Assembly (NCBI RefSeq): GCF_025175675.1 | Contig: NZ_JANIOA010000002.1 | Location: forward strand, 124,001 to 188,000 | Reading direction: 5' to 3' | DNA: 64,000 nucleotides | Source: Sedimenticola hydrogenitrophicus | GTDB lineage: Bacteria; Pseudomonadota; Gammaproteobacteria; Chromatiales; Chromatiaceae | Part shown: positions 37,811 to 62,041 of the stretch, piece after piece | Numbering within the stretch: the first letter of the stretch is position 1 | How the letters are laid out: every line of letters begins with the position of its first letter | Position numbers and translations under genes: made by a program | The notes under the pieces: model-generated | Told to the model about the DNA's origin: nothing | The model's database searches: none | The model's input: the letters and a program-made list of their open reading frames with translations, nothing else

Positions 37811-38530
37811 TCAGCGGCTGCCGACTTCCGGGAGCAGACGGTCGAATTCCTTCTTCACCACCGCATAGCACTCGCAGGCCCGCGCCTCCAGCCCCGCGCG
37901 GTCGAGCACTGTGATGTGGCCACGTTGATACCTAATCAGGCCGGACTTCTGCAGTTTGCCCGCCGCCTCTGTGACACCCTCGCGGCGCACGCCGAGCATA
38001 TTCGCGATCAACTCCTGGGTCATGGCCAATTCGTTGGAGGGCAGGCGGTCGATGCTCAGCAGTAACCAGCGGCAGAGTTGCTGGTCGAGCGAATGATGCC
38101 GGTTACACACCGCGGTCTGTGCCATCTGGGTCAACAAGGCCTGGGTGTAACGTAGTAACAGATGTTGTAGCTCGCCGGAGCGATTGAATTCCTGCTTGAG
38201 CAGTTGTCCCTTTAGACGATAGGCATGGCCGGCGCTCTGCACGACGGCCCTATTGGGCATGGTTTCGCCGCCCATGAACAGGGCGACCCCGATAATCCCC
38301 TCATTGCCGACCACGGCGATTTCGGCCGACGCGCCATCGAGCATGACGTAGAGCAGGGAGACGATGGCCGTGGTGGGAAAAAAGACATGGCGCAACTCGT
38401 TGCCAGACTCGTAGAGCACCATGCCGAGCGGCATCGGGACCAGTTCAAGATACGGGGTCAGGGGTGCGTACTCCTCCGGCGGGAGGGCGGCGATCAGGTG
38501 GTTCTGGTGGGGGTCGTGCGGGTCAGGCAT
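37811..38530 (-). CDS. Crp/Fnr-family transcription regulator
   Basis: A 239-residue regulator. Residues about 15-140 form a cyclic-nucleotide-binding-type beta roll (FFPTTAIVSLLYVMLDGASA, VVGNEGIIGVALFMGG). It lacks the phosphate-binding Arg-Ser pair of CRP and Fnr's N-terminal cysteines, so the ligand is unknown. The C-terminal helix-turn-helix is in MTQELIANMLGVRREGVTEA. The start at 38530 (MPDPHDPHQ) has GGAG eight bases upstream. A paralog with the same plan is at 40185-40892, on the other side of two small lipoprotein genes. Confidence 0.86.
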   Translation of the reverse strand: MPDPHDPHQNHLIAALPPEEYAPLTPYLELVPMPLGMVLYESGNELRHVFFPTTAIVSLLYVMLDGASAEIAVVGNEGIIGVALFMGGETMPNRAVVQSAGHAYRLKGQLLKQEFNRSGELQHLLLRYTQALLTQMAQTAVCNRHHSLDQQLCRWLLLSIDRLPSNELAMTQELIANMLGVRREGVTEAAGKLQKSGLIRYQRGHITVLDRAGLEARACECYAVVKKEFDRLLPEVGSR

Positions 38531-38868
38531 GGGCGAACTCCGTGTTTTGGCTACGATCAAGCTTCCTTACCAATGTGGCGGAACCGGGCACCGCAGATGA
38601 TACGACCAGTATATACCCTCAATTATGTGTGTGCGCGCGACAGCGCGCAGACGCAAATCGGGAGGTCGGTGTAGCTGGCACGTCGGGGCGTAGCCGCGTC
38701 CCGGGTATGTACGCCAGCAGACAGACGACGCGGTGCGCCCACGGTAGGCTGGGACTGTCGGAGCCAGCATGCGAGGTGTGTTCGCTGTAGCGGAGTGCGA
38801 TGCTTGCAAGCCGCACTTGATCCGTTACGACGCCACGCAACTGCAATGCTTCAGGAAAAGGTAATCCC
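38531..38868. other. Intergenic region, promoter of Crp-like gene and lipoprotein
   Basis: No gene seen in these 338 bases. It separates the leftward Crp-like gene from the rightward lipoprotein gene and must hold both promoters. A small hairpin TGCGCGCGACAGCGCGCA is at about 38632-38649. Confidence 0.5.
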
Positions 38869-39096
38869 ATGAAAACGATACAGAAATACGCGCTCAGTGC
38901 AGTTGCCGCAGCAATGCTGCTCGGTTTGGGGGGTTGTTCCGGTATGTCGACACAGGACAAAAACACCGCTATCGGCGCCGGTGTTGGTGCCGTGGGCGGG
39001 GCCATTCTTACCGGCGGCAGCACGGTAGGAACCGTCGGCGGTGCCGCTGTTGGTGGCATCATCGGTCACGAGGTCGACAAGGACGATGACAAATGA
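38869..39096 (+). CDS. OsmB-like glycine-zipper lipoprotein
   Basis: A 75-residue lipoprotein: signal peptide with lipobox LGGC at residues about 21-24, then a glycine-zipper membrane segment (GAGVGAVGGAILTGGSTVGT then VGGAAVGGIIGHEV). OsmB-type proteins are small outer-membrane or periplasmic lipoproteins induced by osmotic or envelope stress. A Lys/Asp-rich C-terminus (DKDDDK) ends it. Ribosome site AGGAAAAGG precedes the ATG. Confidence 0.85.
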   Translation: MKTIQKYALSAVAAAMLLGLGGCSGMSTQDKNTAIGAGVGAVGGAILTGGSTVGTVGGAAVGGIIGHEVDKDDDK

Positions 39097-39228
39097 TGAT
39101 CGATCTGCGATGCGCCAGCCCTGGCCGGCTGGTGCGTTGCAATCGCTCAGCATTCTGATCCCATAGTGAGAATGACCGGCATGGTTGCTCTCATTGCCAT
39201 CCAAGTCGTTCACCAAGAGGTATGAATC

Positions 39229-39420
39229 ATGAAACCTGTCCAGATCGTCAGTGCAGCCCTGGTGGTAAGTGCGTTGCTTGTAGCACTCCCCGGTTGCGAG
39301 AAACAGGGGCCGGCGGAGCAAGCCGGCGAGAGTATCGACAATGCGGCGGAGCGGGCCGGAGATCAGATCGAAAAAGCCGGTGAGGCCATCAAGGACACGG
39401 CACAGGGCGATAACAAGTAA
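39229..39420 (+). CDS. Small entericidin-like lipoprotein
   Basis: A 63-residue lipoprotein with lipobox LPGC (residues 20-23), then a short amphipathic helix of Glu/Lys/Ala repeats (ESIDNAAERAGDQIEKAGEA). Such proteins are typical of stress-induced clusters with Crp-like regulators, CsbD and glycine-zipper proteins. AAGAGGT lies before the ATG. Function unknown. Confidence 0.75.
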   Translation: MKPVQIVSAALVVSALLVALPGCEKQGPAEQAGESIDNAAERAGDQIEKAGEAIKDTAQGDNK

Positions 39421-39453
39421 TATTTGACGCTCAATACCGGAGCACGGTAGGTA

Positions 39454-39603
39454 ATGCAAATACTGAGCGGCACATGGCAGCAACCCTTCATGCGGGCCGC
39501 CGGGACAAAACGCGCAGTTGTAGTAAGCGGTGTGATTGTGCTGGCGGTTACAGCCATCGCGTTACTGTCGACCGGGCTCGACAGACGCAGGTTGCAGGGT
39601 TGA
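39454..39603 (+). CDS. Possible 49-aa single-pass membrane protein
   Basis: ATG at 39454 to TGA at 39601-39603 encodes 49 residues with one hydrophobic stretch (VVVSGVIVLAVTAIALLS) between basic ends (AAGTKR, DRRRLQG). GGTAGGT is three bases upstream of the ATG. It follows the lipoprotein gene by 33 bases. It could be real or a remnant. Confidence 0.35.
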   Translation: MQILSGTWQQPFMRAAGTKRAVVVSGVIVLAVTAIALLSTGLDRRRLQG

Positions 39604-40184
39604 CGGGGAGCTGCCTCCGTCACCTTGTTGGTTTACCGGTTGATTCGGGAGATCTTCGTGCCCGCGATCCCGACACCTGCCATCAACCCTTGCCGGCTGA
39701 AAGTACACGCATAGGCATCAACTTTTTATGTGCGGCATCGTACAGACGAGGGCCTTCGTCTGAGTGACATTAGCTATAAGGAAATGGACGATGACGCCCG
39801 CTATCAAGGCCGGTCGCCACCTGGTCTGGCCAGGCGACGCCACCTCGAAAAAGCAAACGGGTAAAACTGTCGGAACAAGGGCGCCGGTTTGCCGGGGCAC
39901 GTGGGCTTGTGTGTCGCCAGGGCATTTCCTGACACAGGTTCGCTTCACCTTACCTGGGAGATATGAAATGTCATTGGACCACGAGTGGTACCGACTTCAG
40001 CGCAAAGTTCAGTGCCCTCGCGTACACGGGCGGCGCCCGGCAGGTGACTTATGTGCGCTGGCGTCCGGACAGACGCCCGATTTCAGCCCATAGTATGGAA
40101 TACCCATCCTCGGGCGGCCTTCGCCCCCGGTCCGTATCGGCTATCGGTATTGCACTGCCAAGCCGACAAATCAGGATAGTTTGT
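39604..40184. other. Intergenic region before second Crp-like gene
   Basis: No gene is recognised in these 581 bases. A 41-codon frame at 39968-40093 has a good ribosome binding site (GGGAG) but no recognisable product. The rest has no consistent coding pattern. Confidence 0.45.
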
Positions 40185-40892
40185 ATGCCAAACAACAGGC
40201 CCGTCCCTGCTGTCAACCGTCTGCTCGCGGCCTTGCCGCGCAAACACCGCGAGCGTTTTCTGGCAGGCTGCGTACCGGTCGAGCTGGCGTTTGCCGACGT
40301 CCTGGCCGAACCCGGTGAACGTATTTGTCACGTCTACTTCCCCACCGAAAGTTTCATTTCCCTGGTAGCGCCGATCGACAGTCGCGCCAGCCTGGAAGTA
40401 GGGCTGGTCGGTGATGAAGGCATGCTGGGGATTTCCCTGCTGCTCGGGGTGGATGTGTCGCCGCTGCGCTCCGTCGTACTGGGTGCAGGCCAGACGCTGC
40501 GCATGGACACCGCGCTGTTTAGGCGCGAACTCGACCAGATCCCCGCACTGCAACGGGAATTGAAGCGTTACCTCTACGTGGTGCTGGGCCAACTCGCGCA
40601 GACCGCTGCCTGCACCCACTTTCATGTGGTGGAGGCGCGCCTCGCCCGCTGGCTGCTGATGACACAGGACCGCGCGCACTCCGACACGTTTCATATCACC
40701 CATGAATTCCTGGCCTACATGCTGGGGGTGCGGCGCGTCGGTGTCACCAAGGCCGCCACTTCGCTACAGAATCGCGAACTGATCCGCTATAGCCGCGGTG
40801 ATATCAGAATTCTCGACCGCCGCGGACTGGAGGCCGCTTCCTGCGGGTGTTACGCAGCCGACAAAGCCAGCTACGCCCGGATTCTGGGCTAG
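40185..40892 (+). CDS. Crp/Fnr-family transcription regulator, paralog
   Basis: A 235-residue regulator with the same layout as the gene at 37811-38530: beta roll ([36 protein letters not shown]), long dimer helix, and helix-turn-helix ([20 protein letters not shown]). It likewise lacks the cAMP-binding Arg-Ser pair. The start at 40185 ([10 protein letters not shown]) is where homology to the family begins; the frame continues upstream for 74 codons that look non-coding. It is convergent with the c-di-GMP pseudogene. Confidence 0.85.
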
Positions 40893-40943: not shown

Positions 40944-43639
40944 TCACCAGCGTTGTCCGCTCTCAAGCAGCTGTGCGAAGGCCGCGGCGGGCACGGCGTG
41001 ACTGAAGTGAAAGCCCTGTCCCTCCTCGCACGCTTGATCGCGCAGGAATGCAAGCTGCTCGGGCGTCTCCACCCCCTCGGCAATGACCCGTTGCTTGAGG
41101 TTTTTGCCCAGGCCGATCACCGCGCTCACAATGGTTGCGCCATCCGTGCTGTTGACGATGTCGCGCACGAAGGACTGATCGATTTTCAGGGTGTCGATCG
41201 GAAATCGTTTCAGATAGCTGAGGCTCGAATAACCCGTACCGAAGTCATCGATGGCCAGGCGCACGCCTATGGCCTTGAGCGCGTTAAGCACAGTAGCCGA
41301 AGACTCGGCGTCGTGCATGAGGACAGTTTCGGTCAGTTCCAGCTCCAGCAGACCCGGCTCCAGGCCGGTCTCCCGCAGGATCTGCGCGACACCCTCGATG
41401 AACCCTTCGTGCCTGAACTCCATCGCGGAAACATTGACGGTCACGGGCACGACGGGCAGACCGGCAACCTGCCAGGCCCGCACCTGCCTGCAGGCTTCGC
41501 GCAGCGCCCAGCGGCCGATCGTCACGATGAGTCCGTATTCTTCGGCAATCGCCACGAATTGTGCGGGGTATACGAGCCCAAGTTCGGGATCCTGCCAGCG
41601 GATGAGCGCCTCGGCGCCGGTCATTGCGCCTGACGCGAGATTGACCTGCGGCTGGTAGTACAGCAGGAACTCGTGCTCCTTCAGGGCGCGGTGCAGGCGG
41701 CCCTGCACGGCCAGACGATGAGTCATCTCGATGTTCATGTCGGTGTTGAAGAAGCGGTAGGTGTTGCGGCCGCCCGCCTTGGCGTGAAACATCGCGGTAT
41801 CCGCGTTCTTTATCAACGCCTCCACGTAGTTGCCGTCGCCCGGAAACACACTGATGCCGATGCTCAGGGTGACATCGAGCTCCTGTCCGTCGATGACATG
41901 CGGCACGGCAAATGCGGCGATCAGGGTTTCCGCAACCAGGTCGGCACCCCGCGGATGCTCGATCTCGTCCAGCAGGATCACGAATTCGTCCCCGCCCTGG
42001 CGGCACACCATGTCTGTGCTGCGCACACTGGTCAGCAGGCGTCCCGCAACCGACTGCAGCAGCCGGTCGCCGACCGGATGCCCCAGCGAGTCGTTGATAC
42101 GTTTGAAATCATCCAGATCCAGAAACAGCAATGCGACCTGTTTGCCGTGCCTTTGGGCCAGCCCGATGGCCTGGGCGAGCCGTTCCGTCAACTGCGCGCG
42201 ATTGGGCAGGCCGGTGAGAATGTCGTGCGTGGCCAGATGGGCCATCTTCGACGCCATGGCCCGCGACTGGCTGACATCGTGGAAGACGATCACCGCACCG
42301 CTGACGTTACCGTTGCGGTCGTGGATGGGCGCGGCGGAGTCCTCGATGGCGGACTCGGACCCGTTGCGGCGGATCAGCACGCTATCCGCGGCGAGGCCCA
42401 CGGTCCTGTCCTCGTCGAGGGCGCGCTGCGCCGGATTCACGGCGGTCTGGCGGGTCTTGCCGTCGATGATCCTGAATACCTCCGCAAAGGGTCGCCCCAG
42501 CGCACCCTCGCTGGACCAACCGGTCATGGTCTCCGCCACCTGGTTCAAATAGGTGACGTTGCCGAGGAGGTCGGTGCACAGCACGGCGTCACCGATGGAG
42601 TTGAGCGTCACCTGGGCACGCTCCTTCTCCTCGAATAACGCCTCTTCCGCCTTCCGCAATCCGAACTCCGTCACCTTGCGCGCGGTGACATCCTCGACCG
42701 TCTGCACATGACGGCGCTGTTGACGCGCGTCCACACCACGCTCCCATCCTGCCGCTGAAAGCGGAACTCTGCCCGCAACGGCGCATTGCTGAGTGCCGCC
42801 GCGCGCCAATCGTCGATCACGCGCTGGCGGTCCTCCGGGTGAATCGCCATGCTCCAACGCGTGCCCAGCGTCTGTTCGAAACTCAGCCCGCTGATCCTTT
42901 GATAGGCCGCGTTGGTATAAACGCAACTCCCCTGGGCATCGGAGACGAAGATACCCAGCGGGGAAGCATCACTTATCGCGCGGAAGCGCGCCTCACTGCT
43001 CAATAGCGCTTCCCGGGTGGCCTTGTAGTTGAACACGTAACGCAGGGTGCGCGACAACCAGTGGCTGTCTACATGGCCTTTGAGGAAATAGTCGTGCGCG
43101 CCACGCTGCACGGCCTGGCGCGCCAGTTCTTCATCGCCGGCCGGAGTCAGGATAAAAACCAGGGCGTTTGGCGCGGCCTCGATCACCTGGTCAAACACCT
43201 CGAGACCCTGGCCATCGGGAAGTGCAAGGTCAAGCATGACCACCTCGATACCCCCCCTGGCCAGACGTTGTAGCGCGTCGGCGAGCCGCGTCACCCGTTC
43301 GACATGGAACGCGCTACCTTGGGCGCCGGCAAGTCCCGCCTGGATCAACCCGGAAACACCGGGCTCCTGTTCCACGAAAAGCACCGTAGTCGCGGCAGGG
43401 ACCGTGGCAGCCGGGGAGTTGCCGGACCCGATCCCGCCGGCGGCAACGCTGCCGGCACTCTGCCTGGTCCTGCTGCTGCTGCCAATGCGTTCGACCTGCC
43501 GGCCGATGCGGTCGCTAGTGGTGCCGTCAACACGCTTGGTAAAAAGCGCGTCGAGGTGCGTGTCGCTGAGATTGTTCAATAGCCGTTCCACCTTGCGCTT
43601 GAACGTCTTCCAGTTGCGTTCAATCACATCCCAATCCAT
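40944..43639 (-). pseudogene. CsbD-REC-PAS-PAS-GGDEF-EAL protein, broken by an out-of-frame deletion
   Basis: One gene in two frames. Part 1 (43639 to about 42700) encodes, in order, a CsbD-like N-terminus (MDWDVIERNWKTFKRKVERL), a receiver domain (VLFVEQE, VVMLDLALPDGQG, YFLKGH) and a PAS domain (FRAISDASPLGIFVSDAQGS). Part 2 (about 42715 to 40944) continues with the end of that PAS (HVQTVEDVTARK), a second PAS (NSIGDAVLCTDLLGNVTYLN), GGDEF (RQGGDEFVILLDE) and EAL (EALIRWQDPELG, IDDFGTGYSSLSYLKRFP). At the join, WTRVNSAVM and HVQTVEDVT nearly touch, whereas PAS domains normally have about eight to ten residues between them, so a short out-of-frame deletion fits better than a single-base slip. 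Start at 43639 has AAGGAT eight bases upstream. Confidence 0.82.
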
Positions 43640-43856
43640 ACCGAAATCCTTTTGAGACCCATATGAAAGCTTAGTTGCATAGTCGGGCCGGGTCTGTTTG
43701 ATGCCGCACATAGGAGTGCTGCGACCGCCCAGGCCGCCGGGCCCGGTCACGGCTGCACCCGGGGTGATACCGTCGCCGCCCTGGAGGCGCGCCATCCGCG
43801 CTCCATTTTTCGGCTATCATAGACAATGAGGGGCAACAGGATGAAATTACAGGCAC

Positions 43857-43884
43857 AAAAAAAGCCCTGTAAAAACAGGGCCTT
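43857..43884 (-). terminator. Terminator beyond the displaced tRNA-Leu 3' end
   Basis: Read leftward, GCCCTGT and ACAGGGC arms around a 4-base loop followed by a run of T (AAAAAAA on the plus strand at about 43857-43863). It lies 37 bases beyond the displaced tRNA 3' end, where the original tRNA-Leu terminator would be if the island were absent. Confidence 0.82.
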
Positions 43885-43920
43885 TCATCACTTTTTGTAG
43901 TCTGTGATGGTTTTTCAATA

Positions 43921-43949
43921 TGGTGCCGAGGAGAGGACTTGAACCTCCA
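43921..43949. repeat. Attachment site, distal copy (29-bp tRNA-Leu 3' end)
   Basis: TGGTGCCGAGGAGAGGACTT followed by GAACCTCCA, identical to the last 29 bases of the tRNA-Leu(CAG) gene (62042-62070). Only the 3' end of the tRNA is present. This is the far end of an element integrated in the tRNA. Confidence 0.92.
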
Positions 43950-44032
43950 AAAAATACATAAATTTAATATTTAAAACAATAGCTTATAGCTATAGATGGG
44001 TATTCGCGCGCCACATACGCTCCACACTGATG

Positions 44033-44941
44033 TTAGAGGCCCAGCACATGGCGTAGACGATCCAGCGCTGTCTTGTGAGCGTTCGCGCTCATCCTATGCA
44101 CATTGCGTAGTTTCCACTGGATTGCAGGCAGTTGCTGAATATGCTCGAAGGGCATCAAGCTCCAATCTGGCTTACCTTGCTTGACTGATAGTAGGAACTT
44201 GCGTTCGCTTTCTGAAAGTGCCGTGCGCACCCACGAAAACAATTGTTCCCGAGTGGCCTCAAGTTCGTCCAGTCCGATTGCGTGAGCGGTCATACCCGCA
44301 AAGTGGTGGGTATAGAGTTGTTCGATGGGTACCCGTTTCGGGGATAAAAACTCTGTCATGGGTCGGCGATGTCCAGCAAGGTAGACAACGAATGCCTGAC
44401 GGATGTTATCGGAGATTTCCCCGGCATTGAGCAACTGCTTGATGTCAAATAGGTCACGGGGATGCTGCCGATCGAGAGCCGCACATAACTTCCCCCCGTA
44501 AAGGTCTCCGGTGGCCAGTCGTTGAACGCGTACGAACAATTCATACTCGTCCTGCGCCGCCTGACACAAGTCACGCTCGACCGGTGGGAAAAGAGCACCC
44601 CGGGAAATTGGGCTTGGTTCCACCTTGATGCGTGCCTGGGGTGTGGCGATCTGCAGCTTGGGAGCATCGGTTCCGGTAGCCCGAATCTGTACCTGAGGAA
44701 TAGTGCGCTGGATCTCTTCTCCAATCGTTTCGAGCCCTTCAGTGATCGCGGTCAGAGCTGTGTCACGATCGGTGATCGGCAAGTATGTCAGGTCAATATC
44801 GACGGAGAGCCGCGGCATGTCGCAGTGAAACAAGTTGATGGCGGTTCCACCCTTCAAGGCAAAGGTACGGACTTTAGCCACTGCGGGTAAGCAGCGAATC
44901 AATAAGTCCACTTGGGCTCGATAGCGTTTGTTGGCAGGCAT
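44033..44941 (-). CDS. AbiEii-type nucleotidyltransferase toxin
   Basis: A 302-residue member of the AbiEii/AbiGii toxin family, type IV toxin-antitoxin enzymes. Related toxins transfer nucleotides onto tRNA and stop translation during phage infection. The nucleotidyltransferase signature is LKGGTAINLFHCDMPRLSVD followed by IDLTYLP, and a later conserved block is RDLFDIKQLL. It follows its antitoxin gene by nine bases on the same strand. It is the first gene inside the island and is a plausible phage-defence or island-maintenance module. Confidence 0.9.
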   Translation of the reverse strand: MPANKRYRAQVDLLIRCLPAVAKVRTFALKGGTAINLFHCDMPRLSVDIDLTYLPITDRDTALTAITEGLETIGEEIQRTIPQVQIRATGTDAPKLQIATPQARIKVEPSPISRGALFPPVERDLCQAAQDEYELFVRVQRLATGDLYGGKLCAALDRQHPRDLFDIKQLLNAGEISDNIRQAFVVYLAGHRRPMTEFLSPKRVPIEQLYTHHFAGMTAHAIGLDELEATREQLFSWVRTALSESERKFLLSVKQGKPDWSLMPFEHIQQLPAIQWKLRNVHRMSANAHKTALDRLRHVLGL

Positions 44942-44950
44942 GCTGATTCC

Positions 44951-45706
44951 TTATGGGTAATTCGTGTCTGCCACGACCAGATCATATTTTTTATCAAGAT
45001 GGCCACCGGGGTGGATCGTTCGTTTCCCGGTTCCAAAATCAACACGTGATAGGCTCAGATCATCGAGCCATGGATGGTTCAATCGTTCGGCGGCGTACAT
45101 GAACAGGCGTTTGGTCTTTACCGAGCGACAGGTTTCCAGTAATCGCTGTACAACGCGAGGGCGAAGGGACGTCAATGACTCCATCACCTGCAAGGCCTCT
45201 TCGAACGATTGTTGCTTCGGGACGAGGTACATCATCTCGAAAGCCGCTCGCTCAAGGGTTGCGACCGAGAGTTCAACATCCTCGACCTTGACCGTCGAGA
45301 CGGTGTTCTCGTCATCAGTAAAGATGCCGCTGGTCACCAAGCGCACGGGCTGTGACCACTGGTGGTTGCTGAACCAGGAGGGTAGTTTGGTCTTTGCCTT
45401 CGCAAACAACACGACTTCGCGGCCACCCAATGCCAGATAGTGGGCATAACCGCGGAGATCGAAGGCCGTGATAGCGCCAGGGTGTACATCCAAACCCAGT
45501 TGTTTTTGGAGTGCATGAACGGCGCCGGGCCAGTCAACGGTCGAACCTGCCCGGACATAGGCGCTATGGCCGAACCGATTCAGCCAGCCGGATCGAACAT
45601 ATTTATCGGCCAGCCGGAAGTCTATACCTTTGCTATTGAGCCAGCGCTGGGTACCAACGATATGTGGCGGCCAATCCTGGAGCAACAGGTTTATTTTTGA
45701 TCCCAT
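44951..45706 (-). CDS. AbiEi-type antitoxin regulator
   Basis: A 251-residue protein of the AbiEi family. The N-terminal winged helix is in LADKYVRSGWLNRFGHSAYV; the C-terminal domain neutralises the toxin. AbiEi proteins also repress their own promoter by binding inverted repeats. The start at 45706 (MGSKINLLLQDW) was chosen as the first Met of the family region; the frame is open for 20 more codons upstream. Three copies of TATAAACC lie upstream (45739-45826) as a candidate operator. Confidence 0.86.
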   Translation of the reverse strand: MGSKINLLLQDWPPHIVGTQRWLNSKGIDFRLADKYVRSGWLNRFGHSAYVRAGSTVDWPGAVHALQKQLGLDVHPGAITAFDLRGYAHYLALGGREVVLFAKAKTKLPSWFSNHQWSQPVRLVTSGIFTDDENTVSTVKVEDVELSVATLERAAFEMMYLVPKQQSFEEALQVMESLTSLRPRVVQRLLETCRSVKTKRLFMYAAERLNHPWLDDLSLSRVDFGTGKRTIHPGGHLDKKYDLVVADTNYP

Positions 45707-45738
45707 ATCACTACTCAAATGCGATAATAACGCATGAA

Positions 45739-45826
45739 TATAAACCACGTGAATGTAGAATAGCATAGGTTTATAAAAATACTAAATCATCCCGTGAAAG
45801 GCGATATAATGGAATTATTATAAACC
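45739..45826. promoter_or_regulatory. Candidate AbiEi operator with TATAAACC repeats
   Basis: TATAAACC at 45739-45746, its reverse complement GGTTTATA at 45768-45775, and TATAAACC again at 45819-45826. A further palindrome TATAATGGAATTATTATA is at 45805-45822. The region is AT-rich and lies upstream of the antitoxin gene, with the integrase gene ending just after it. Confidence 0.55.
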
Positions 45827-45850
45827 ATGGCCTGGGAAGCCGCTGGAAAA

Positions 45851-46921
45851 CTACTGGGTTGAGGTCTGTATGTTGGCTGGCGAAGCAGGCTGGCCAAAAC
45901 CAGATACAAAAACATGCCGGTGTTTTTCTTCCGCCTGCTCTACCCACCGACCATAATGGCGCATGATCATCTCGGTGGTTTTATGGCCCATCTGCTGGGC
46001 GACAAATAGGGGATTCTCACCACCCGACAGTAGTTGACTCGCGTAGGTGTGACGGGTTTGATACGGATTGCGATAGCGCACCTTCGCACGTTTGAGGATA
46101 TACCTCCAGGGCCGTTCCAGATGCTCGTAATCCACAAATGATCCACGTTCTCTGGGACGAACGAATACGAATTCACCGCCGATGAAGCTATATTGTTTTT
46201 GATTCTTCAAGGCATCCAAGGCAAACGGTATGAGAATGACATCCCGGGTCCCGGCCTTTGTCTTCGTCTCTTTGACTTTTCGCTCAACTACTGCACGCTG
46301 GACACGGATAACTCCATGACGCCAGTCTACGTCGCTCCACATCAAACCAAAGAGTTCAGAAGTGCGCAGGCCGGTGTAGAAGGCGAACTGAAGGAGATTT
46401 CGAATGCGGGGATCATATTCAAATGCGAGTTCAAGTACCGCTTTGATCTCGTCTTCCGTAAATGGATCCACCTCATAGTCCGTTCGTGCCTGCTGACGAC
46501 TAACCAGCTTGCTCACCTTGATCTTATCGAGTGGGTTCCGGTCGATAACATCATCATTCAGCGCGCGATCCAGTATAGCTCGAAGCGGTGTCAGGTCGTT
46601 GCGTATGCTTTTCAGCGTGCTTTTCCGACTACGTATCCACTCGCGGATCCGTTGAGGAGTAAGTTCCCGGGCGCGGATGCTGCCGAACTCGGGTAACAGG
46701 TGGGCATGGCAGCTTTTCCGATAGCAACGGTATGTGCTATGCGGGTGGGTTTGCTCGATATCCTTCAACCATTCTTCCAATAGCTCTTTAATCGTGACAG
46801 TCGAGACAGCATGGCCGAATAATCGTGCCCGTCTTGAATCGGGGAAGTAATCTGTGTAGCGGAAGGTCTGGCGCTCAATTGCGTTCTCGATTTCTGCTTT
46901 AAGGTTGATCGCGTAGCGCCG
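45851..46921 (-). pseudogene. int: Tyrosine recombinase/integrase, N-terminus lost
   Basis: The catalytic domain is complete: Arg in TGLRTSELFGLMW, the His-x-x-Arg box in YQTRHTYASQLLSGG, the following His in QQMGHKTTEMIM and the nucleophile Tyr in RHYGRW. The core-binding domain is present (TIKELLEEWLKDIEQTHPHS). Family members begin with an arm-binding domain, of which only RRYAINLKAEIENAIERQTF remains. At about 46918 the match ends abruptly and the sequence becomes that of a conjugation gene on the other strand. The frame stays open into that gene as an artefact. It was probably the enzyme that integrated the island, now likely inactive. Confidence 0.85.
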
Positions 46922-48124
46922 GTGACCCTGGCGGCGGTCAAACGGCTTTATGCCCGGCCGCCTTCCTTTACCGATCTCCTGCCCTGGGTCGATTACGACC
47001 CCAATAGCCGCACCTTTCTGCTGGAGGATGGCGTCAGCGTGAGCGCCTTGTTTGAAATCCTGCCCGCGGGCACCGAGGCCCGCACCCCCCAGTTCATGAC
47101 CCAACTGCGCGATGCCATCCAGACGGCACTGAGCGATGCCATCCCCGAGGAAGACGAGGCGCCCTGGATCCTGCAGGTCTATGTGCAGGATGAGCCGAGT
47201 CTGCAGGCGTTTCAGAAGGAGGTGGCGGCCTATGCGCAACCGGGTGTCCAGGCTACCCCCTTCACCCGGCACTTTCAGGCGACCTTTGCCCAGCATCTGG
47301 CGCGGATCACCCGTCCCGGTGGGTTGTTCGAGGATACCGCGGTAACCGGCACCCACTGGCGCGGACAACTGCGTCGGGTCCGCGCCACGCTCTATCGCCG
47401 GTTGAAGGTGAAGGGCAAGATGCCGCCGGCGATCGAGATGGGCGATGGCATGGCGCTGTTCTGCTCCGGTCTCGCCGGCCACTTCTTCAACCGCCCCGGC
47501 ACCCCCTGGCCGGAGGCCGATGTCACGCTGCTGGAGATGGGCATCCTGGCGCGTGAGGGCTACGAGGATCAGCTCACCGTGGCCTATATCTCCATGATGA
47601 GCCACATCAACGACCTGGTGGAACGTCACCAGCACGATGCCCGGCCCACCCTGGTGGTGACCGACGAGGGCCACATCATCACCACCAACCCCTTGCTGGC
47701 CCGTTACGTGGTCAAGATCACCAAGATGTGGCGCAAGCTCGGCGCCTGGTTCTGGATCGCCACCCAGAACCTGGAGGACTTCCCCGACGCCAGCCGCAAG
47801 ATGCTCAACATGATGGAGTGGTGGCTGTGCCTGGTCATGCCCAAGGAGGAGGTCGAGCAGATCGCCCGTTTCAAGGACCTGAGCGAGGTGCAGCGCAGCC
47901 TGCTACTGTCGGCCCGCAAGGAGCCCGGCAAGTACGTTGAGGGCGTGGTGCTCTCCGACAACCTCGAAGCCCTGTTCCGCAATGTACCACCACCATTGTC
48001 ACTCGCCCTTGCGATGACCGAGAAGCATGAGAAGGCGGAGCGCGCGGCTATCATGCGCGAGCGTGGATGCAGCGAGCTGGAGGCGGTGTATATCGTTGCT
48101 GAGCGGATTGCTGAACGCCGGTGA
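46922..48124 (+). pseudogene. TraC-like conjugative ATPase (PFL_4706 family), internally deleted
   Basis: A 400-residue frame whose first part (about residues 1-175, with LPWVDYDPNSRTFLLEDGVS and RITRPGGLFEDTAVTGTHWR) and last part (from about 195, with DVTLLEMGILAREGYEDQL and WIATQNLEDFPDASRKMLNM) match the two ends of a protein normally about twice this long. The middle, including the Walker A nucleotide-binding loop, is missing although the frame is kept. Walker B-like VVTDEGH remains. The N-terminal end also looks clipped, at the integrase junction. It marks the island as the remains of an integrative conjugative element of the ICEclc/PFGI-1 type. Confidence 0.8.
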
Positions 48125-48189
48125 GGTGCAAAAAACGGTAGGCCATGAGGGGGATGATATAATGTTACGCCGTAACCATGGAGAAATAA

Positions 48190-48849
48190 TTGCCCATGCC
48201 CTGTCCCTTATGCCGCCACGGACACACGGTTTTCTATCACCAGGACGAGCGCCGGCCCTACCGGCAATGCGGCCGTTGCCGGCTGGTGTTCGTGCCGCCC
48301 GCCTATCGCTTGTCACCGACGGTGGAGAAGGCGCATTACGACCTGCACGACAACGACCCGGGCGACCCGGGATACCGCCGGTTTCTGTCGCGGCTGTTCG
48401 AACCCATGCGAGAAAGGGTAGCCCCGCCGGCGCAGGGACTGGATTTCGGCAGCGGGCCGGGACCGACCCTGTCGCTGATGTTCGCCGAGGCGGGTTATGA
48501 TATGGCCATCTACGATCCCTTCTACGCCCCGGATGGCCGCGTCCTGCGGCGGACCTACGATTTTATCACTGCCAGCGAGGTGGCCGAGCATCTGTACGCG
48601 CCGGGCGAGGTGTTGACGCGGCTATGGAATCTGCTCCGGCCCGGCGGCTGGCTGGGATTGATGACCAAGCTGGTCAGCGATCAGGGCGCCTTCGCAAACT
48701 GGCATTATAAACTCGACCCGACCCACGTCTGTTTCTTCTCCCGCGAGACTTTCGCCTGGTGGGCCGGCCGGAACGGATGCGAGGTCGACTTTATCGGCAA
48801 GGATGTCATTCTGCTGCGCAAGCCGCCGCATTCGCCTTCTGCGGTATGA
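48190..48849 (+). CDS. Class I SAM-dependent methyltransferase with N-terminal zinc ribbon
   Basis: A 219-residue protein. The first 35 residues carry two CxxC pairs (CPLCRHGH and CGRCRLVF) that should bind zinc. The methyltransferase fold follows, with a SAM-binding motif GLDFGSGPGPTLSLMFAEAG and a later LLRPGGWLGLMTK segment. It is similar to stand-alone methyltransferases of unknown target. The TTG at 48190 has GGAG at six bases; an ATG at 48196 is the alternative. Its 3' end overlaps the convergent helicase gene by 44 bases. Confidence 0.8.
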   Translation: MPMPCPLCRHGHTVFYHQDERRPYRQCGRCRLVFVPPAYRLSPTVEKAHYDLHDNDPGDPGYRRFLSRLFEPMRERVAPPAQGLDFGSGPGPTLSLMFAEAGYDMAIYDPFYAPDGRVLRRTYDFITASEVAEHLYAPGEVLTRLWNLLRPGGWLGLMTKLVSDQGAFANWHYKLDPTHVCFFSRETFAWWAGRNGCEVDFIGKDVILLRKPPHSPSAV

Positions 48850-50893
48850 AACTTGCCGGTGCACCAACACAGGTCAGGGTCAACCGGTGCATGGCGCGGG
48901 TACAGGCCACGTACAGCAGGTTACGATCCATCTCTGTGTGGTAGTTGCTCGCACTCACGCCAGCGACGATGACGCGATCAAACTCCAGTCCCTTGGCCAG
49001 GTGTGCCGTGCAGACGATCACCCCGCTGGAAAAGCCGGTGCTGTCGGCAGCGAGAAGGCGCGCCTCGACGCCGGTGTCCACCAGTGACTTGTGCAGCCGG
49101 TTCGCCTGCTTCTGCGTCTTGGCGATGATCGCCAGGCTGTGGTGGTCGGATGCTCGGAATGCCTCGATCTCGTCGCGAATACGCTCGATCATCTGCGCGG
49201 GGCGTTTGCAACTCACCACCCGTGGTGCCTCACCGTACCGCTTCATGGCCTCCAGCTCCGGGTTTGGCGAGATCGCCAGCGCGAACTGCATGATCTCCCA
49301 TGTTGAGCGGAAACTCTTGGTGAGCTTGACGCCGGTGGCGGATTTCAGACTCCGGCCGATCTGTTCCGCGGTGGAGCTGCTGTAGGGATTGACCGACTGG
49401 GTCGCATCGCCGAGTACCGTCTTGCGGCAGGAGAACAGCCGGCCCAGAACGGCGTATTGCACGGGCGTATAATCCTGCATCTCGTCGATCAGCAGGTGCT
49501 TCACCGCTGAACGGGGATTTCGCACACCCTCCAGGCGCATCTTGAGGTGGATCAGTGGAAACACATCCGCGTATTCGAGCTTGCCGCCGGCGGGCTTGAA
49601 CAGCTCCGGCTGTCCCATCCATTCGTACAGGCCCTGGTAGGCTTGGCGCAAGGTCATCTTGCGCACCATGCCGCGGATGGTCTCGCGTAGCGATTGCCGC
49701 TCGTCGGTGCGCAGATCGTAGTTGTAGTGAATGCCGATCTGGCTCTCGGTTGCATTGACCATGCGGGCGATGCGTTCGGTGAGCCCCACTCCGCGATGCT
49801 TTTGCCAGGTCTCGGCGAAGAACCAGTCGGGCACGATTTTGCGGCCGGTGCGCCATTCGGCGGCCTGGAAAGAACGCTTCTCGATTTCTTCGGCATAGCG
49901 ATCGATCTGGCGCAGGAAATCCGGTGTTGCCTTGGCGGCGATGCGCGCCTTGAGCGCCTCATCGTTCTTCTCCAAAAGCTGCGTGGTCTGCTCAAAGAAG
50001 GTCTGAAAGCGATACTGGGAATCAAGCAGCTCATCGGCCAGGTCTTCCATCCCGATCTCGGCCACCTGTTCCTCGCCCAACTCCGGCAGCACGTTGCCGA
50101 TGTAGGCGGCGAACACGCGATTGGGCGAGATGATCAGGATGTCGTCGGAGCTGAGCGTGTCCTTGAAGCGGTAAAGCAGGTAGGCAATGCGGTGCAACGC
50201 GATTGATGTCTTACCGGAACCTGCCACCCCCTGGATGATCAGGGTATGCGCGTCGTCGTTGCGGATGATGGCGTTCTGGTCCCGTTGGATGGTGGCGACG
50301 ATGTTCTTCATGCCCTCGTCATTGCTGGCGCGGCTGAGTTCTTCCTGCAGCACGTCATCGACGATGTGGACGCCCGATTCGAGCACGAACTCCAGCTCGC
50401 CGTTACGAATGCGGAACTGGCGCTTGAGCGTCAGTTGGCCCTCGACCTCGCCCGCCGGGGCCTGGTAGCGCGCCGGGCCGGTCTCGTAGTCGTAGAACAT
50501 GGACGCAATCGGCGCGCGCCAATCGTAGACCAAGGTTTCGCGGGCGACCTCGTCACGGAAATGGTGCACGCCAATGTAGACCGGTTCACTATTCGCTTCG
50601 CCGCTTTTGTGGAAATCGAAGCGGCCGAAATAGGGCGAGCGCATCAGCTTGTGCAACTTCTGCTGCTGGGCCTTGAGCACCCCGGCGGAATCCAGGGTCT
50701 GTTCGATGGTTTGACGCACCGCGATCTTCTCGATGTGATCCATGTCACGCCGGGCCTCCCACAGGTACTCCTTGCGGGTCTGGATTTCCCGCGCGTAGTC
50801 GTTGAGCCGTGTGTCGATCTGCTCAAGCGCGTTGCGGATGCTCGTCTGACACGCTCCCAGACGGGCCCTTTCTTTGGTTTCAGCGGTAGTCAT
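48806..50893 (-). CDS. HelD/UvrD-like superfamily 1 helicase
   Basis: A 695-residue superfamily 1 ATPase of the HelD/helicase IV branch. An N-terminal coiled coil (LEQIDTRLNDYAREIQTRKE) precedes the Walker A loop GVAGSGKTSIALHR, with Walker B in HLLIDEMQDY, motif III in LGDATQSV and motif VI in LLYVACTRAMHRLTL. HelD-type proteins either unwind DNA or pull RNA polymerase off DNA and recycle it, and several protect against rifamycins. The coiled coil and overall length favour the HelD type; the acting substrate is not certain. Confidence 0.85.
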   Translation of the reverse strand: MTTAETKERARLGACQTSIRNALEQIDTRLNDYAREIQTRKEYLWEARRDMDHIEKIAVRQTIEQTLDSAGVLKAQQQKLHKLMRSPYFGRFDFHKSGEANSEPVYIGVHHFRDEVARETLVYDWRAPIASMFYDYETGPARYQAPAGEVEGQLTLKRQFRIRNGELEFVLESGVHIVDDVLQEELSRASNDEGMKNIVATIQRDQNAIIRNDDAHTLIIQGVAGSGKTSIALHRIAYLLYRFKDTLSSDDILIISPNRVFAAYIGNVLPELGEEQVAEIGMEDLADELLDSQYRFQTFFEQTTQLLEKNDEALKARIAAKATPDFLRQIDRYAEEIEKRSFQAAEWRTGRKIVPDWFFAETWQKHRGVGLTERIARMVNATESQIGIHYNYDLRTDERQSLRETIRGMVRKMTLRQAYQGLYEWMGQPELFKPAGGKLEYADVFPLIHLKMRLEGVRNPRSAVKHLLIDEMQDYTPVQYAVLGRLFSCRKTVLGDATQSVNPYSSSTAEQIGRSLKSATGVKLTKSFRSTWEIMQFALAISPNPELEAMKRYGEAPRVVSCKRPAQMIERIRDEIEAFRASDHHSLAIIAKTQKQANRLHKSLVDTGVEARLLAADSTGFSSGVIVCTAHLAKGLEFDRVIVAGVSASNYHTEMDRNLLYVACTRAMHRLTLTCVGAPASFIPQKANAAACAAE

Positions 50894-50928
50894 GCGGGAT
50901 TCGTTTTCTCCAGTCTCAGAGGGCGACG

Positions 50929-53117
<2,189 letters not shown>

Positions 53118-53421
53118 GACGATTTACCTCCCGGGCGCGAACCCGGTCCGCCGCGGCTGCGACGCGCGCGTCTTCTCGGGTCGCCGCCCGTTCGAGTTTT
53201 TCGAGTTCGGCCAGCACCGCCTCTGCGCTCAGGTCCAGCAGCCGTTCGCCATCCAGGCCGAGGACGTCTATGCGGTCCCTGAGCCCTGGTTCCAGGCTTG
53301 TTTCCAGCTGGGCCGCCGCTGTATCGCCGGACCCAACCCAGCGCGCGTGCACATAGGTCTGGATCAGTGCGCCAAGCCGCTTTGCTTCCTGTGCCGGTAT
53401 CTGTTCAATTTTGGAACACAC

Positions 53422-53848
53422 TAATCTTCACTTGTCTTTTAGTTGTCGACCTGTTTGCCGGTTGGTCGCACCCGGCATTCCGGCCAGGGGCATCCAGGCA
53501 CACATAAGGGCGGCAGGCGCGGCCTTTGAAATAACGAGGATCGGGATCCGCATCGGTGGCAAACTGGGTGTCGACCAGTGCATCCGCGGCGGCTCACTGC
53601 ATCCCGAGCCGAAAACCGGCTTGTTCGGCAACGCACTGTGCGCTCTGGAATGACCGGCCCGAACCCGAATCGCGGGTGAGGGCAGGGTGGCGGATTACAA
53701 TTACCGCCAGGCTGACAATACGGACTGTCAGGTTAGGAAAAATAGCACATTTGGCGCTGCGTTTGTAGTAACGCGGAGCGCCCTGTGAAAGGTCAGGCTT
53801 TACGGAGGCATTGCCGACGCAAAGAGAAAATGTCCGGTTGCGAATGAT
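53422..53848. other. Intergenic region between stress genes
   Basis: Open frames of up to 80 codons exist on both strands in these 427 bases, but none matches a known family or has a good start. It may hold the promoter for the hypothetical-macro-groEL run, and possibly decayed coding sequence. Confidence 0.4.
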
Positions 53849-54697
53849 TCAACGGAGCAATAATACGGGTATCTGAGCGTTGCGTATCATGGCCGTGGTG
53901 GTGCTGCCGACCAGGAAGCGGCGGATGACCGAATGGCCGTAGGCACCCATGACGAGGATGTCGATGGCGTGTTCGCGGCGGTAATCGCACAGTGTAGCCT
54001 CGACATCACCTTCCCGTAGCGTGGTGGTGACGTCAAAGCCGGATGCTTCCAGGGTCTGCCGGGCCCAGTCCAGTTGCTCTCGGTGCGCGGCAGCATCGGT
54101 GCCGACCATCACCACATGGCACGGCATACCGCGGAACAGCGGGCTGCCGGCGACCATGTCCACTGACTTGTGGGCCGTTTTACTACCGTCGAATGCGATC
54201 ATGACCTGCTCGGGCCTCTTGTAAGCCGCCGGACAGACCAGCATGGGCCGATGCAGACTGCGGACCAGGGTTTCGAGCCGGCTGCCCACGTGCGCACCCA
54301 GGTTCTCGTCATGTTTGCCCAATACCAACAGTCGAGTGTCCTGCTCGATAGATAACAGGGAATCGAGCAGATCGCCATGACGCTGATGCACGACAGGCTC
54401 GCTGACCCCATCGGCCAGTGCTTGCTGTCGCGCGGTTTCCAACATGACACGCCCCTGTTCCAATGCAAGCCTGCCGCGCTTTTCATCCAGCTCCGTCAGT
54501 TCTTGCAGCAGGGCCTCGCGGCTGCCCAATCCGATGTTCCCACTGAGGTTGCCCTTCACCGGGTAGGCTGACTTATCGAGTACGTGTAGCAGAATAAGCG
54601 GCGCGGCCAGTTGCAGACTGGCCCAGGCGGCGTAGTCACTGACGGCGGTGGAGACGTTGGTGCCGTCAATACAGGCGATTACATTGGTCTTGGTCAT
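53849..54697 (-). CDS. Tandem universal stress protein (UspA)
   Basis: A 282-residue protein with two Usp domains. The second has the ATP-binding signature GAYGHSVIRRFLVGSTT near the C-terminus; the first lacks a clear match at that place (LGKHDENLGAHVGSRLE). UspE-like tandem proteins help survival under starvation, oxidative and membrane stress. It follows the SulP gene by 16 bases on the same strand, and Usp domains are often paired or fused with SulP transporters. Confidence 0.9.
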   Translation of the reverse strand: MTKTNVIACIDGTNVSTAVSDYAAWASLQLAAPLILLHVLDKSAYPVKGNLSGNIGLGSREALLQELTELDEKRGRLALEQGRVMLETARQQALADGVSEPVVHQRHGDLLDSLLSIEQDTRLLVLGKHDENLGAHVGSRLETLVRSLHRPMLVCPAAYKRPEQVMIAFDGSKTAHKSVDMVAGSPLFRGMPCHVVMVGTDAAAHREQLDWARQTLEASGFDVTTTLREGDVEATLCDYRREHAIDILVMGAYGHSVIRRFLVGSTTTAMIRNAQIPVLLLR

Positions 54698-54713
54698 GGT
54701 AATTCCTTTCCGG

Positions 54714-56192
54714 TCAGTGACCCATTAATTTTTCCACCGCGTCCGGCTTGTCGTGCACGGCGAATTTATCCACGATGGTGGCGCTGGCCTCGTTGAGCCC
54801 TATGAGTTCAACCTCGGTGCCCTCTCGGCGGAATTTGAGGACTACTTTGTCCAACGCCGCCACGGCGGTGATATCCCAAAAGTGCGCCTGGATCAGGTCG
54901 ATAACGACCTTGTCCAGCGCTTCCTTGAAATCGAAAAACTCCAGGAACTTGTCCGCCGAAGCGAAGAATACCTGACCGACCACCAGATAGGAACGCACAG
55001 TACCCGTTTCGTTCAGTTGCGAGGTGACGTACTTGTACTGGGCTACCTTGTTGGCGAAGAACATCGCCGCCAGCAGTACGCCGACGAACACGCCCCAGGC
55101 CAGGTTGTGGGTGGCGACCACCACCACCACGGTGGTGATCATCACCAGGCTGGAGCTTTTCGGGTGTATTTTCAAGTTGCGCAAGGATCCCCAGCTGAAG
55201 GTGCCAATGGCCACCATGATCATCACCGCCACCAGTGCCGACATGGGGATGCGCGCCACCCACTCGCCAAGGAATACCACCATGATGAGCAGGAAGACGC
55301 CGGCGGCCAGCGCCGAGAGACGGGTACGCCCGCCGGATTTCACGTTAATCACCGACTGGCCGATCATGGCGCAGCCCGCCATGCCGCCCAGCAGGCCGGA
55401 GGCGATATTGGCCACGCCCTGGCCTTTGCACTCGCGGTTCTTGTCGCTGTCCGAATCGGTCAGGTCGTCGACGATGGTCGCCGTCATCAACGACTCCAGC
55501 AGGCCCACCATCGCCAGCGACACCGAATAAGGCAAGATAATCGCCAGGGTTTCGAAATTCAGCGGCACCTCGGGCCAGAGGAACACCGGCAGGGTGTCCG
55601 GCAGCTCGCCCATGTCGCCCACGGTGCGGATATCCAAATGCAGGAACATGGAGATGGCCGTCAGCACCACGATGGTGACCAGCGGCGATGGCACCGCCTT
55701 GGTGAGATAGGGAAAGAGGTAAATGATCGCCAGGCCGCCGGCGGTCATGGCGTAGACCTGCCAGGTCACGCCGGTAAGCTCTGGCAACTGCGCCATGAGG
55801 ATGAGGATCGCCAGCGCATTGACGAAGCCGGTGACCACCGAGCGCGACACGAAACGCATTAGCGAACCCAGCTTGAGATAACCCGCCAGAATTTGCAGCA
55901 CACCGGTGAGCAGCGTGGCGGCCAGCAGGTATTGCAGCCCGTGATCCTTGACCAGCGTCACCATCAGCAGCGCCATGGCGCCGGTGGCGGCGGAGATCAT
56001 GCCGGGCCGTCCGCCGACGAAGGCGATGACCACCGCGATGCAGAATGATGCGTACAGGCCCACTTTGGGGTCGACCCCGGCGATCACCGAGAAGGCGATC
56101 GCCTCGGGGATGAGGGCCAGTGCGACGACGATGCCGGCGAGCAGGTCGGCGCGAATGTTGCCGAACCACTGGGCACGGAGTGAATGAACCAT
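54714..56192 (-). CDS. SulP-family anion transporter with STAS domain
   Basis: A 492-residue transporter of the SLC26/SulP family. About 12-14 membrane helices carry the N-terminal [20 protein letters not shown] signature and the [13 protein letters not shown] region. A short C-terminal STAS domain follows ([20 protein letters not shown]). Family members move sulfate, bicarbonate, chloride or dicarboxylates; with a UspA partner, bicarbonate uptake is a reasonable guess. It is the upstream gene of the UspA pair. Confidence 0.9.
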
Positions 56193-56480
56193 ACTACTTT
56201 CCTATTGAACAAAACGACCCTGCCCGGCGTAGCGGACGGGTATGGAGGAATGGCGAATGCAAGGTGATGCGACTGGATGCGCCGGGGAAAGCGCTATGGC
56301 GGGGTGATCGATTGTTTGTATTGCGTCATTTTCAAGAGAGCTCTTTTAGTTCGAAAATCTGGAGTAATTAAGTATTCTGACATTTATCAGAAAACGAATC
56401 CACACTTCTTACTCTGAATTAAAGTAGTGGGACCAGTAGTTTGGCCCCCTGAGACCTTGTGTGTTTGGTGGGTTTACTGC

Positions 56481-56822
56481 TTATCTGCCGTGCATTTCAG
56501 CGCAGACGATGCACAAGGTAGCCGCCGGGTCGAACTCCAGGCGGCGCGGGTTGATAGGTTCATCGCAGTCGGTGCAGTAGCCGTAGCTGCCGTCGTCGCA
56601 GCGGTGCAGCGCCGTCTCGATGCGGCGCAGTTCCTGTTCCGCCCGCTGGCGGGTGTTCTGCGCCATGGCCTGCTGCTGCAGGGCATCCATCCGCGAGAGA
56701 CGGCCGACGCTGGTCTGATCCAGCACCACGGTGGCGGTGGAGGCTTTGCGGGCATCCGCCAGGCCCTGGATAGCATCACGGGCGGCGAGGAGTTTATCAC
56801 GAAAATGATCGATATCCGGCAT
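56481..56822 (-). CDS. DksA/TraR-family zinc-finger protein
   Basis: A 113-residue protein. An N-terminal helical hairpin with VVLDQTSVGRLSRMDALQQQ precedes a four-cysteine zinc finger (GYCTDCDEPINPRRLEFD then TLCIVC). DksA and TraR bind the RNA polymerase secondary channel and change stringent-response promoters. This is the short TraR-like type common on mobile elements. The start at 56822 (MPDIDHFRDK) was chosen by homology; the frame opens 48 codons earlier and no strong ribosome binding site is seen. Confidence 0.87.
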   Translation of the reverse strand: MPDIDHFRDKLLAARDAIQGLADARKASTATVVLDQTSVGRLSRMDALQQQAMAQNTRQRAEQELRRIETALHRCDDGSYGYCTDCDEPINPRRLEFDPAATLCIVCAEMHGR

Positions 56823-57133
56823 GTTGTTAATCAATGAACTCTGAATGCTTGGCCCAAACTCAGTATCTATGATAGCCTTCGCCGCATTCATTGACCAGGA
56901 GTGGCGCCCGCCGTTCCGGACCCCGACGTCTTCGTCGGTAAATACGGTCTCACGCTTCCCGGCCACGCTTTTGCCCAGGTCGGTTGAATAAGGGCACGTC
57001 TTTCCCGCTACGCGATGTCGGTTGTATCGCGCCGTAGGCAGGGGTGTGCGTTCTCTATCCCTCCCCGTACCGGCACGATCAGCCGGCCACGCAGCCAGAC
57101 GTTTGGTGCGCCGGCCGGCTGCCCAAATGACGG

Positions 57134-59182: not shown

Positions 59183-59186
59183 TTTT

Positions 59187-60817
<1,631 letters not shown>

Positions 60818-60821
<4 letters not shown>

Positions 60822-61612
60822 GCAAGCCGACCCTGAGCAGTTCCCTGAACCCGGAGAAGGCGGCATTCGTCGCTGCCCGGACGGTTGCGGCCCAGCGGGC
60901 GCTGGCGGAACTTTCCGACCGCTATTCGCCCGTGCCGCTCGACGAGGCGGAGGTGATCGTCGCGCTGGGCGGGGACGGTTTCCTGTTGCACGCCCTGCAC
61001 CGGTTTTTGCCGCGCCGCCTGCCGGTGTTCGGCATGAATCTCGGCACCGTCGGTTTTCTGATGAACGAGTATCGCGCGGAGGGACTGGACGATTGCCTGC
61101 GCCAGGCGGTGGCGATGACGCTTACGCCATTGCGCATGCGTGCCGAGACCGCCGAGGGCGAAATTGTCATCGCCTTGGCCATCAACGAGGTGTCGTTGCT
61201 GCGCGAGAGCCGCCAGGCGGCCTCCCTGCGCATCAAGGTTGATGGCGTGGTGCGTCTCGATCCGCTGGCCTGCGACGGCGCACTGGTGGCCACCCCGGCG
61301 GGCAGCACGGCCTACAACCTGTCCGCCCACGGCCCGATCCTGCCGATGGACGCGGGCGTGCTGGCGCTCACCCCGGTATCCCCCTTCCGGCCGCGCCGCT
61401 GGCGCGGCGCCTTGCTGCCACGCGCTGCGTGCATCGAGTTCGAGGTACTGGAGCCCTACAAGCGGCCGGTAAGCGCGGTGGCCGATTTTCACGAGGTGCG
61501 CGACGTGCGCCGGGTCACGGTCCAGGAGGCGGTCGACAGCCCGATCACCTTGCTGTTCGATCCCGAGCACCATCTGGAGGAGCGCATCCTGCGGGAGCAG
61601 TTCCTGGCGTAA
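60818..61612 (+). CDS. nadK: NAD kinase, alphaproteobacterial-type
   Basis: A 264-residue kinase that makes NADP+ from NAD+ and ATP. The catalytic GGDG is in [17 protein letters not shown]; the substrate loop is [14 protein letters not shown], then NEVSLLR and [16 protein letters not shown]. The GFLMNEY block is the form found in alphaproteobacterial NAD kinases, whereas gammaproteobacterial NadK usually has GNLGFLTD. It is likely a transferred gene. It overlaps prfC by four bases and is followed by a small HMA-like gene after six bases. Confidence 0.9.
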
Positions 61613-61618
61613 CGGCTA

Positions 61619-61873
61619 ATGGTTCATGAACAAACAATCAGGCGGGAATTCCGTGTCCACGGGCTGAAAAGCATCTATTGCGCCGAGCGCCTGCGCGGCG
61701 CTCTGAGCCGGCTGCCGGGTGTCCGATGCTACGTCTTGTACAAGCGCGCCTATGCGGAGGTGGAGGCGCCGGCGGATGTGTCTATCGAGGCATTGCAGGG
61801 CATTGCCAAACGGGAGGGTTACCGGTTGCAACCGATGACCGCAAAGACTCAAGGCGGTGAGCCCGCGCCATAA
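61619..61873 (+). CDS. HMA-fold small protein with a lost metal-site cysteine
   Basis: An 84-residue protein with the ferredoxin-like heavy-metal-associated fold. The helix after the first strand, VHGLKSIYCAERLRGALSRL, lines up with the GMTCxxCAxxIE pattern of copper and mercury chaperones, but the first Cys is Ser (GLKS) and only the second is kept (IYC). Normal Cu(I) binding through two thiols is not possible. It ends the GGDEF-prfC-nadK operon. Function is unknown; the remaining Cys could be a redox or haem/metal half-site. Confidence 0.68.
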   Translation: MVHEQTIRREFRVHGLKSIYCAERLRGALSRLPGVRCYVLYKRAYAEVEAPADVSIEALQGIAKREGYRLQPMTAKTQGGEPAP

Positions 61874-62041
61874 TGGAGCGGTTGCCGAATACCACTGCAA
61901 AGTAAAGTATCCCATCTCGCTTCGTTCTCGGCCTACTCATGGCGTTGTGCGAAAGGAACGGTCAGGTGCGAGGTGCGGAGCGTGTTTTGCGAGGGAAATA
62001 AAAAACCCCTGGCATATTAAAATGTCAGGGGTTTTCATATT
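61874..62041. other. Island end before tRNA-Leu
   Basis: No gene. It holds a short stretch after the HMA gene and the terminator at 62001-62036 that follows the reconstituted tRNA-Leu. Confidence 0.65.
62001..62036 (-). terminator. Terminator following tRNA-Leu(CAG)
   Basis: Arms AAAACCCCTG and CAGGGGTTTT around a 14-base loop. Read leftward from the tRNA it is followed by a T-rich run. It belongs to the island side of the junction and replaces the original terminator, which is now at 43857-43884. Confidence 0.85.

Follow-up and report, generated by a model that had tools for sequence, protein, structure and literature searches.

A gene on the minus strand of Sedimenticola hydrogenitrophicus (43639-40944 of the 64,000 nucleotides analyzed here, referred to as the window) appears to begin with a relative of the small stress protein CsbD and to continue as a response regulator with domains for cyclic di-GMP (c-di-GMP) turnover. 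This raises the questions of whether the N-terminus indeed derives from CsbD, how it became joined to such an enzyme, and whether it still serves a purpose there. In the window, the CsbD-derived segment, a receiver and a PAS domain share one frame, which then breaks. The first open frame extends from the ATG at 43639 to a stop at 42671-42673 and encodes the CsbD-like segment (residues 1-60, 43460-43639, with profile matches to residues 1-38), a linker that takes the place of an intergenic gap (43385-43459, delimited by sister alignment and start-codon scan), the receiver (43076-43384; PF00072, 8e-13, with an LDLALPDG phosphoacceptor segment whose aspartate was assigned by eye) and most of the first of two PAS domains recognized by Pfam (42710-42988). 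A second minus-strand frame carries the second PAS domain (42273-42614), a GGDEF domain (41763-42233; 3e-50) and an EAL domain (40998-41699; 1e-71), and closes with the stop codon at 40944-40946. The GGDEF motif, an RxxD five residues before it and the EALIRW motif were located by eye; c-di-GMP synthesis and cleavage by this protein are putative activities. The frame is also open 5' of the ATG at 43639, with an in-frame ATG at 43795; the start was nevertheless placed at 43639 because a ribosome-binding-like AAAAGGA, likewise recognized by eye, sits 7 nt before it (43647-43653). No sigma-70 promoter was found in 43500-44100, where 0.5 would be expected by chance.

An intact orthologue, as sought among related genomes, was found in S. 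hydrogenitrophicus SN1189 (L050), whose locus is 94.8% identical to the window at the DNA level. Here, a single open frame of 906 amino acids from the same ATG encodes the CsbD part, the receiver, two PAS domains, GGDEF and EAL, i.e. the same domain order that the window distributes over two frames. The preliminary description is correct in its coordinates and domain order; the single frame of CsbD, receiver, PAS, GGDEF and EAL to which it refers is uninterrupted in this relative, and is divided in two by the break in the window. Its proposal of an out-of-frame deletion at about 42700-42720 in the first PAS domain agrees with the assembly: compared with L050, 28 nt are missing from the window near 42712, within the first PAS (junction at 42710-42714 in the DNA alignment), after which the frame ends at 42671. 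Since the intact relative has the fused open frame, the fusion predates the break. Within the genus Sedimenticola, three of nine genomes gave a strong match (E of 1e-102 or better) and the other six only matches of 9e-12 or worse, two of these six being less than 80% complete. For the L050 protein, the best 25 of 111 NCBIfam matches include no equivalog above its cut-off.

Immediately 5' of the gene, 43921-62070 is likely a genomic island, with a 29-bp copy of the tRNA-Leu(CAG) 3' end at 43921-43949 that matches 62042-62070, a phage-type integrase (45854-47674) and an AbiEi/AbiEii pair (44036-45766). In L050 (at 3252-3820), homology to the window likewise stops some 180 bp ahead of the ATG, beside a fragment that looks transposase-like by eye and is presumably of the IS21 type. 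The adjoining region at 37811-40892 contains two Crp-type regulators and, between them, a glycine-zipper gene and another small gene, the latter lipoprotein-like by eye and without a Pfam match at E<=0.01.

The resemblance of the first 50 residues to CsbD, the starting point of the preliminary description, is not apparent from standard models. The Pfam CsbD family (PF05532) gave no match to the window segment at E<=1, which leaves it short of the curated cut-off of 40 bits. The best NCBIfam match, NF007748, which we take to be the YjbJ model, reached E=0.015, far below its cut-off, as compared with 5e-22 for the CsbD of the sister Sedimenticola sp. N3S-Bin_9 (L051). Pfam alone was regarded as too strict for this question, and CsbD profiles were therefore built from loci (15 seed sequences out of 26 loci, collected with a single phmmer query at 1e-3; two seed pairs represent the same genes in the overlapping loci L015 and L028). 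Three such profiles score the window segment at 21.5, 23.0 and 26.5 bits and that of L050 at 17.4-24.1 bits, whereas 2000 shuffles of the segment reach at best 9.0 bits over the three profiles, and 8.4 bits beside the score of 26.5. In 2799 six-frame open reading frames, taken from the window together with 26 control loci, none of the three profiles finds a match below E=4 other than the window gene, the control loci (89 kb in all) yielding none. A search with the single sequence in 274 genomes of the class returned 11 non-self places with E<=0.01, spread over 9 genomes and reaching 1e-7 at best, and by coordinate comparison all 11 overlap places matched by Pfam CsbD. A search of 96 family genomes, in which up to 24 candidates per genome were scored, gave at least 10 genomes with a match: that of the window and nine others, whose matches are weak (26-39% identity).

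The match is confined to approximately the first 38 residues. Aligned with 12 separate CsbDs, the window segment shows 26-39% identity, and W10, K11, F13, V17, L24 and L29 are common to all 14 rows, as are M1 and two further invariant columns. In the second half, both fused copies have lost nine alignment columns, match poorly in the remainder and lack the G(K/R)(I/L)QE.YG stretch of CsbD. With the single sequence, a search of PDB sequences ranked 1ryk (YjbJ; E=0.36) below a flagellin (E=0.024), and the structure model, with three helices at low confidence (pLDDT 67), had no Foldseek match; a model from the CsbD alignment likewise remained at low confidence (pLDDT 62). An alignment profile that includes the fused segment does find 1ryk and 1yww, as expected because CsbDs dominate that profile. 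Taken together, these sequence comparisons indicate a resemblance that exceeds chance, and sequence and genome position both support the descent of the N-terminus from CsbD. The profile search, a check on which the relationship could have failed, came out for CsbD and not for an unrelated segment; what has to be amended is the picture of the segment itself, which is degenerate, about nine residues short and invisible to Pfam.

The evidence from genome position comes from 40 loci encoding a relative of the regulator, obtained by a pattern scan of genome contigs (three pattern matches in viral contigs included no relative). Regulator starts in these loci are estimates. A separate csbD on the same strand, at most 600 bp upstream of the regulator, is present in 13 of them (L051, L057, L058, L059, L060, L064, L065, L072, L074, L077, L078, L083 and L084), although that of L058 is cut by a contig end and the regulator start in L057 may overlap csbD. 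In Dechloromonas denitrificans and D. hortensis, for example, csbD lies about 213 nt before the regulator. Two further loci contain remnants at this place, a 17-residue start in L061 and a 22-residue end in L086, with the regulator kept in both and no CsbD match by Pfam in the L086 genome. The gene is fused to the regulator in one locus (L050), lies about 3.6-3.8 kb upstream in three (L062, L067 and L070) and downstream in one (L088), and went undetected in 20, several of them with little sequence available upstream. A whole-genome search of 23 of these genomes, many of them metagenome bins of unstated completeness, revealed CsbD matches in 20, with 0 to 3 per genome; by matched coordinates, csbD is at the regulator in 11 of the 23 and is there the genome's sole CsbD match in six (L051, L060, L064, L065, L072 and L077). 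Elsewhere, none of the places listed in a 369-genome class sample has CsbD in an open frame of more than 198 codons, and CsbD-containing open frames in the family sample extend to 288 codons. The fusion of CsbD to a c-di-GMP enzyme first noted in the window is accordingly real, with the qualification that it joins two often-neighboring genes and was observed in no locus other than the window and L050; as far as sampled, it is not a widespread architecture.

Two side observations concern the same loci. The regulator frame comprises just 402-643 codons in L057, L058, L071, L077, L081 and L082, as compared with about 830-980 in most others; these short frames end before the DNA does, and may represent broken or shorter genes. 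Moreover, a pattern search indicated a small Cys-rich protein (CPxC...RRxxD...RYRC...CxWEG; 62-76 amino acids in eight aligned members) close to the regulator, on its upstream side, in 13 of the 40 loci (L053, L058, L059, L060, L061, L064, L065, L072, L074, L078, L083, L084 and L086), and far upstream of it in L067. Its gene lies between csbD, or the csbD remnant, and the regulator in 11 loci, before csbD in L059 and without csbD in L053. The pattern has no match in the window or in 69 other loci, and two members examined had no Pfam match above cut-off.

How the two genes became one can be read from the sister species. In L051, csbD (a full Pfam member at 76 bits) ends in TAG, and the regulator starts 42 nt further on in the same frame. 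A three-way alignment places this TAG opposite CAG (codon 60, 43460-43462) in both fused copies, a reading that depends on aligning diverged DNA with gaps, and the regulator ATG of L051 opposite ACG. Neither fused copy has an in-frame ATG, GTG or TTG in the linker, and in the window the first such codon after residue 21 is the GTG of residue 86, within the receiver. L051 groups with the window and L050 with support of 100/98 in a tree of the long protein (30 of the 40 loci plus the C-terminal piece of the window) and in one of receiver and first PAS (34 of the 40 plus the N-terminal piece), both midpoint-rooted. The fusion is derived and local. Because L051 keeps csbD, TAG and regulator in one frame and groups with the fused pair, a two-gene ancestor that fused through stop loss is probably the simplest account. 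In the common ancestor of the window lineage and L050, the csbD stop would have changed to a sense codon and the regulator would have lost the start of its own, so that translation would proceed from the csbD start.

Whether the fused part still acts as a CsbD was approached through the nonsynonymous/synonymous rate ratio between the window and L050, which amounts to 0.49 for residues 1-60 and 0.33 with the linker included, as compared with 0.04 for receiver and first PAS and 0.26 for the sequence that follows the break (a codon adjacent to a 3-nt gap was omitted, and the Fisher tests use rounded counts). CsbD part plus linker differs from receiver plus first PAS (p=0.012, Fisher), a contrast built on small numbers, 16 and 18 changes. 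The part after the break likewise differs from receiver plus first PAS (p=0.013); there, changes fall on both sides. No difference emerges between CsbD part plus linker and the remainder of the gene taken as a whole (p=0.41, or p=0.31 for residues 1-60 by themselves). Neutrality is not rejected for residues 1-60 (p=0.25) and is rejected when the linker is added (p=0.03), which suggests some constraint on CsbD part and linker and makes a kept function of the CsbD part possible. A canonical CsbD is retained elsewhere in both fused-copy genomes, that of the window genome at C76. On account of the rate ratios and the lost residues, the comparison favors, without proving, a decaying or drifting leader rather than a working CsbD.

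In sum, we consider it probable that a REC-PAS-PAS-GGDEF-EAL response-regulator gene lost its boundary with an upstream csbD, that the CsbD part is a degenerating leader and that the gene is broken in the window. In the intact relative, receiver phosphorylation and a PAS signal would then control the balance between making and degrading c-di-GMP, while the shortened, helical CsbD piece would serve mainly as a leader carrying the ribosome-binding site, its original role fading. Alternatively, the fused piece could be a working input or partner-binding module, with CsbD normally acting on the neighboring c-di-GMP regulator and the fusion representing a covalent link. We regard this as rather unlikely: the proximity of csbD to the regulator in 13 of 40 loci and in 11 of 23 genomes, six times as the only CsbD match, speaks for it, but half of the loci have no detected csbD, the regulator persists in L061 and L086 beside mere csbD fragments, and the fused piece is short of residues and fast-evolving. 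That the resemblance to CsbD is a coincidence in a helical, charged N-terminus is highly improbable and was already disfavored. The absence of a Pfam match, the better rank of flagellin over 1ryk and the lack of a Foldseek match to a low-confidence model would fit such a coincidence; a score far above those of the self-shuffles, the unique match among the open reading frames, the identity of all other single-sequence matches as CsbDs and the presence of csbD at the corresponding place in relatives, sister L051 included, would not.

The break itself may conceivably be an assembly error in an intact window gene, which we also consider doubtful. The region is GC-rich with short near-repeats, and both halves are still open frames close to L050. 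Window-side changes after the break are also without clear excess: polarized against 29 of the 40 loci (open reading frame above 800 amino acids; L052 and L087-L089 left out by name), the 29 changes between window and L050 comprise 16 derived in the window, 9 derived in L050 and 4 unclear, and the 10 before the break comprise 5, 2 and 3, respectively. The 16 versus 9 changes are hence not decisive for pseudogene decay of the C-terminal part. Against an assembly error, the gap is a clean 28 nt with no exact repeat at its bounds by eye, and the window's genome yielded no further close copy of the N-terminal part. If the gene is broken as the assembly has it, the window organism would make no full protein, only the receiver and part of a PAS domain, along with at most a PAS-GGDEF-EAL piece translated from a start of its own.

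CsbD/YjbJ proteins occur widely as stress proteins, and two papers give their function as unknown (PMC6561927, PMC6828939); one of these counts a CsbD-like gene as well as a GGDEF-EAL gene among the neighbors of a maltase gene cluster in Actinoplanes and kin (PMC6828939). In the open-licence literature, titles and abstract starts revealed no published fusion or gene pair of CsbD and a c-di-GMP enzyme. As a tentative proposal, CsbD could be a partner of the c-di-GMP response regulator, the cluster of csbD, the small Cys-rich protein and REC-PAS-PAS-GGDEF-EAL in Beta- and Gammaproteobacteria a stress-to-c-di-GMP module, and the Sedimenticola fusion its covalent form. The recurring cluster is of lasting interest, as it ties an unexplained stress protein to c-di-GMP signaling, and together with one fusion it provides a concrete, testable partner for CsbD. 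The locus is also a likely example of gene fusion via stop-codon loss, with the two-gene state preserved in a sister species. The fused protein in itself is a curiosity; what merits a test is its value as evidence that CsbD belongs with the c-di-GMP regulator.

With regard to known systems, the gene combines features of two families. With CsbD/UPF0337 proteins (PF05532; E. coli YjbJ, 1ryk, and P. aeruginosa PA4738, 1yww), it shares an alignable stretch of 38 residues, the start and the position upstream of the regulator; it differs in scoring below the Pfam and NCBIfam cut-offs, in the nine-residue gap of its second half and in its fusion to a large enzyme. With hybrid REC/PAS/GGDEF/EAL response regulators, it has the domain set and order in common, including full-length GGDEF and EAL matches, whereas the CsbD-derived N-terminus sets the window and L050 apart from them, and the window gene is in addition split by a frameshift.
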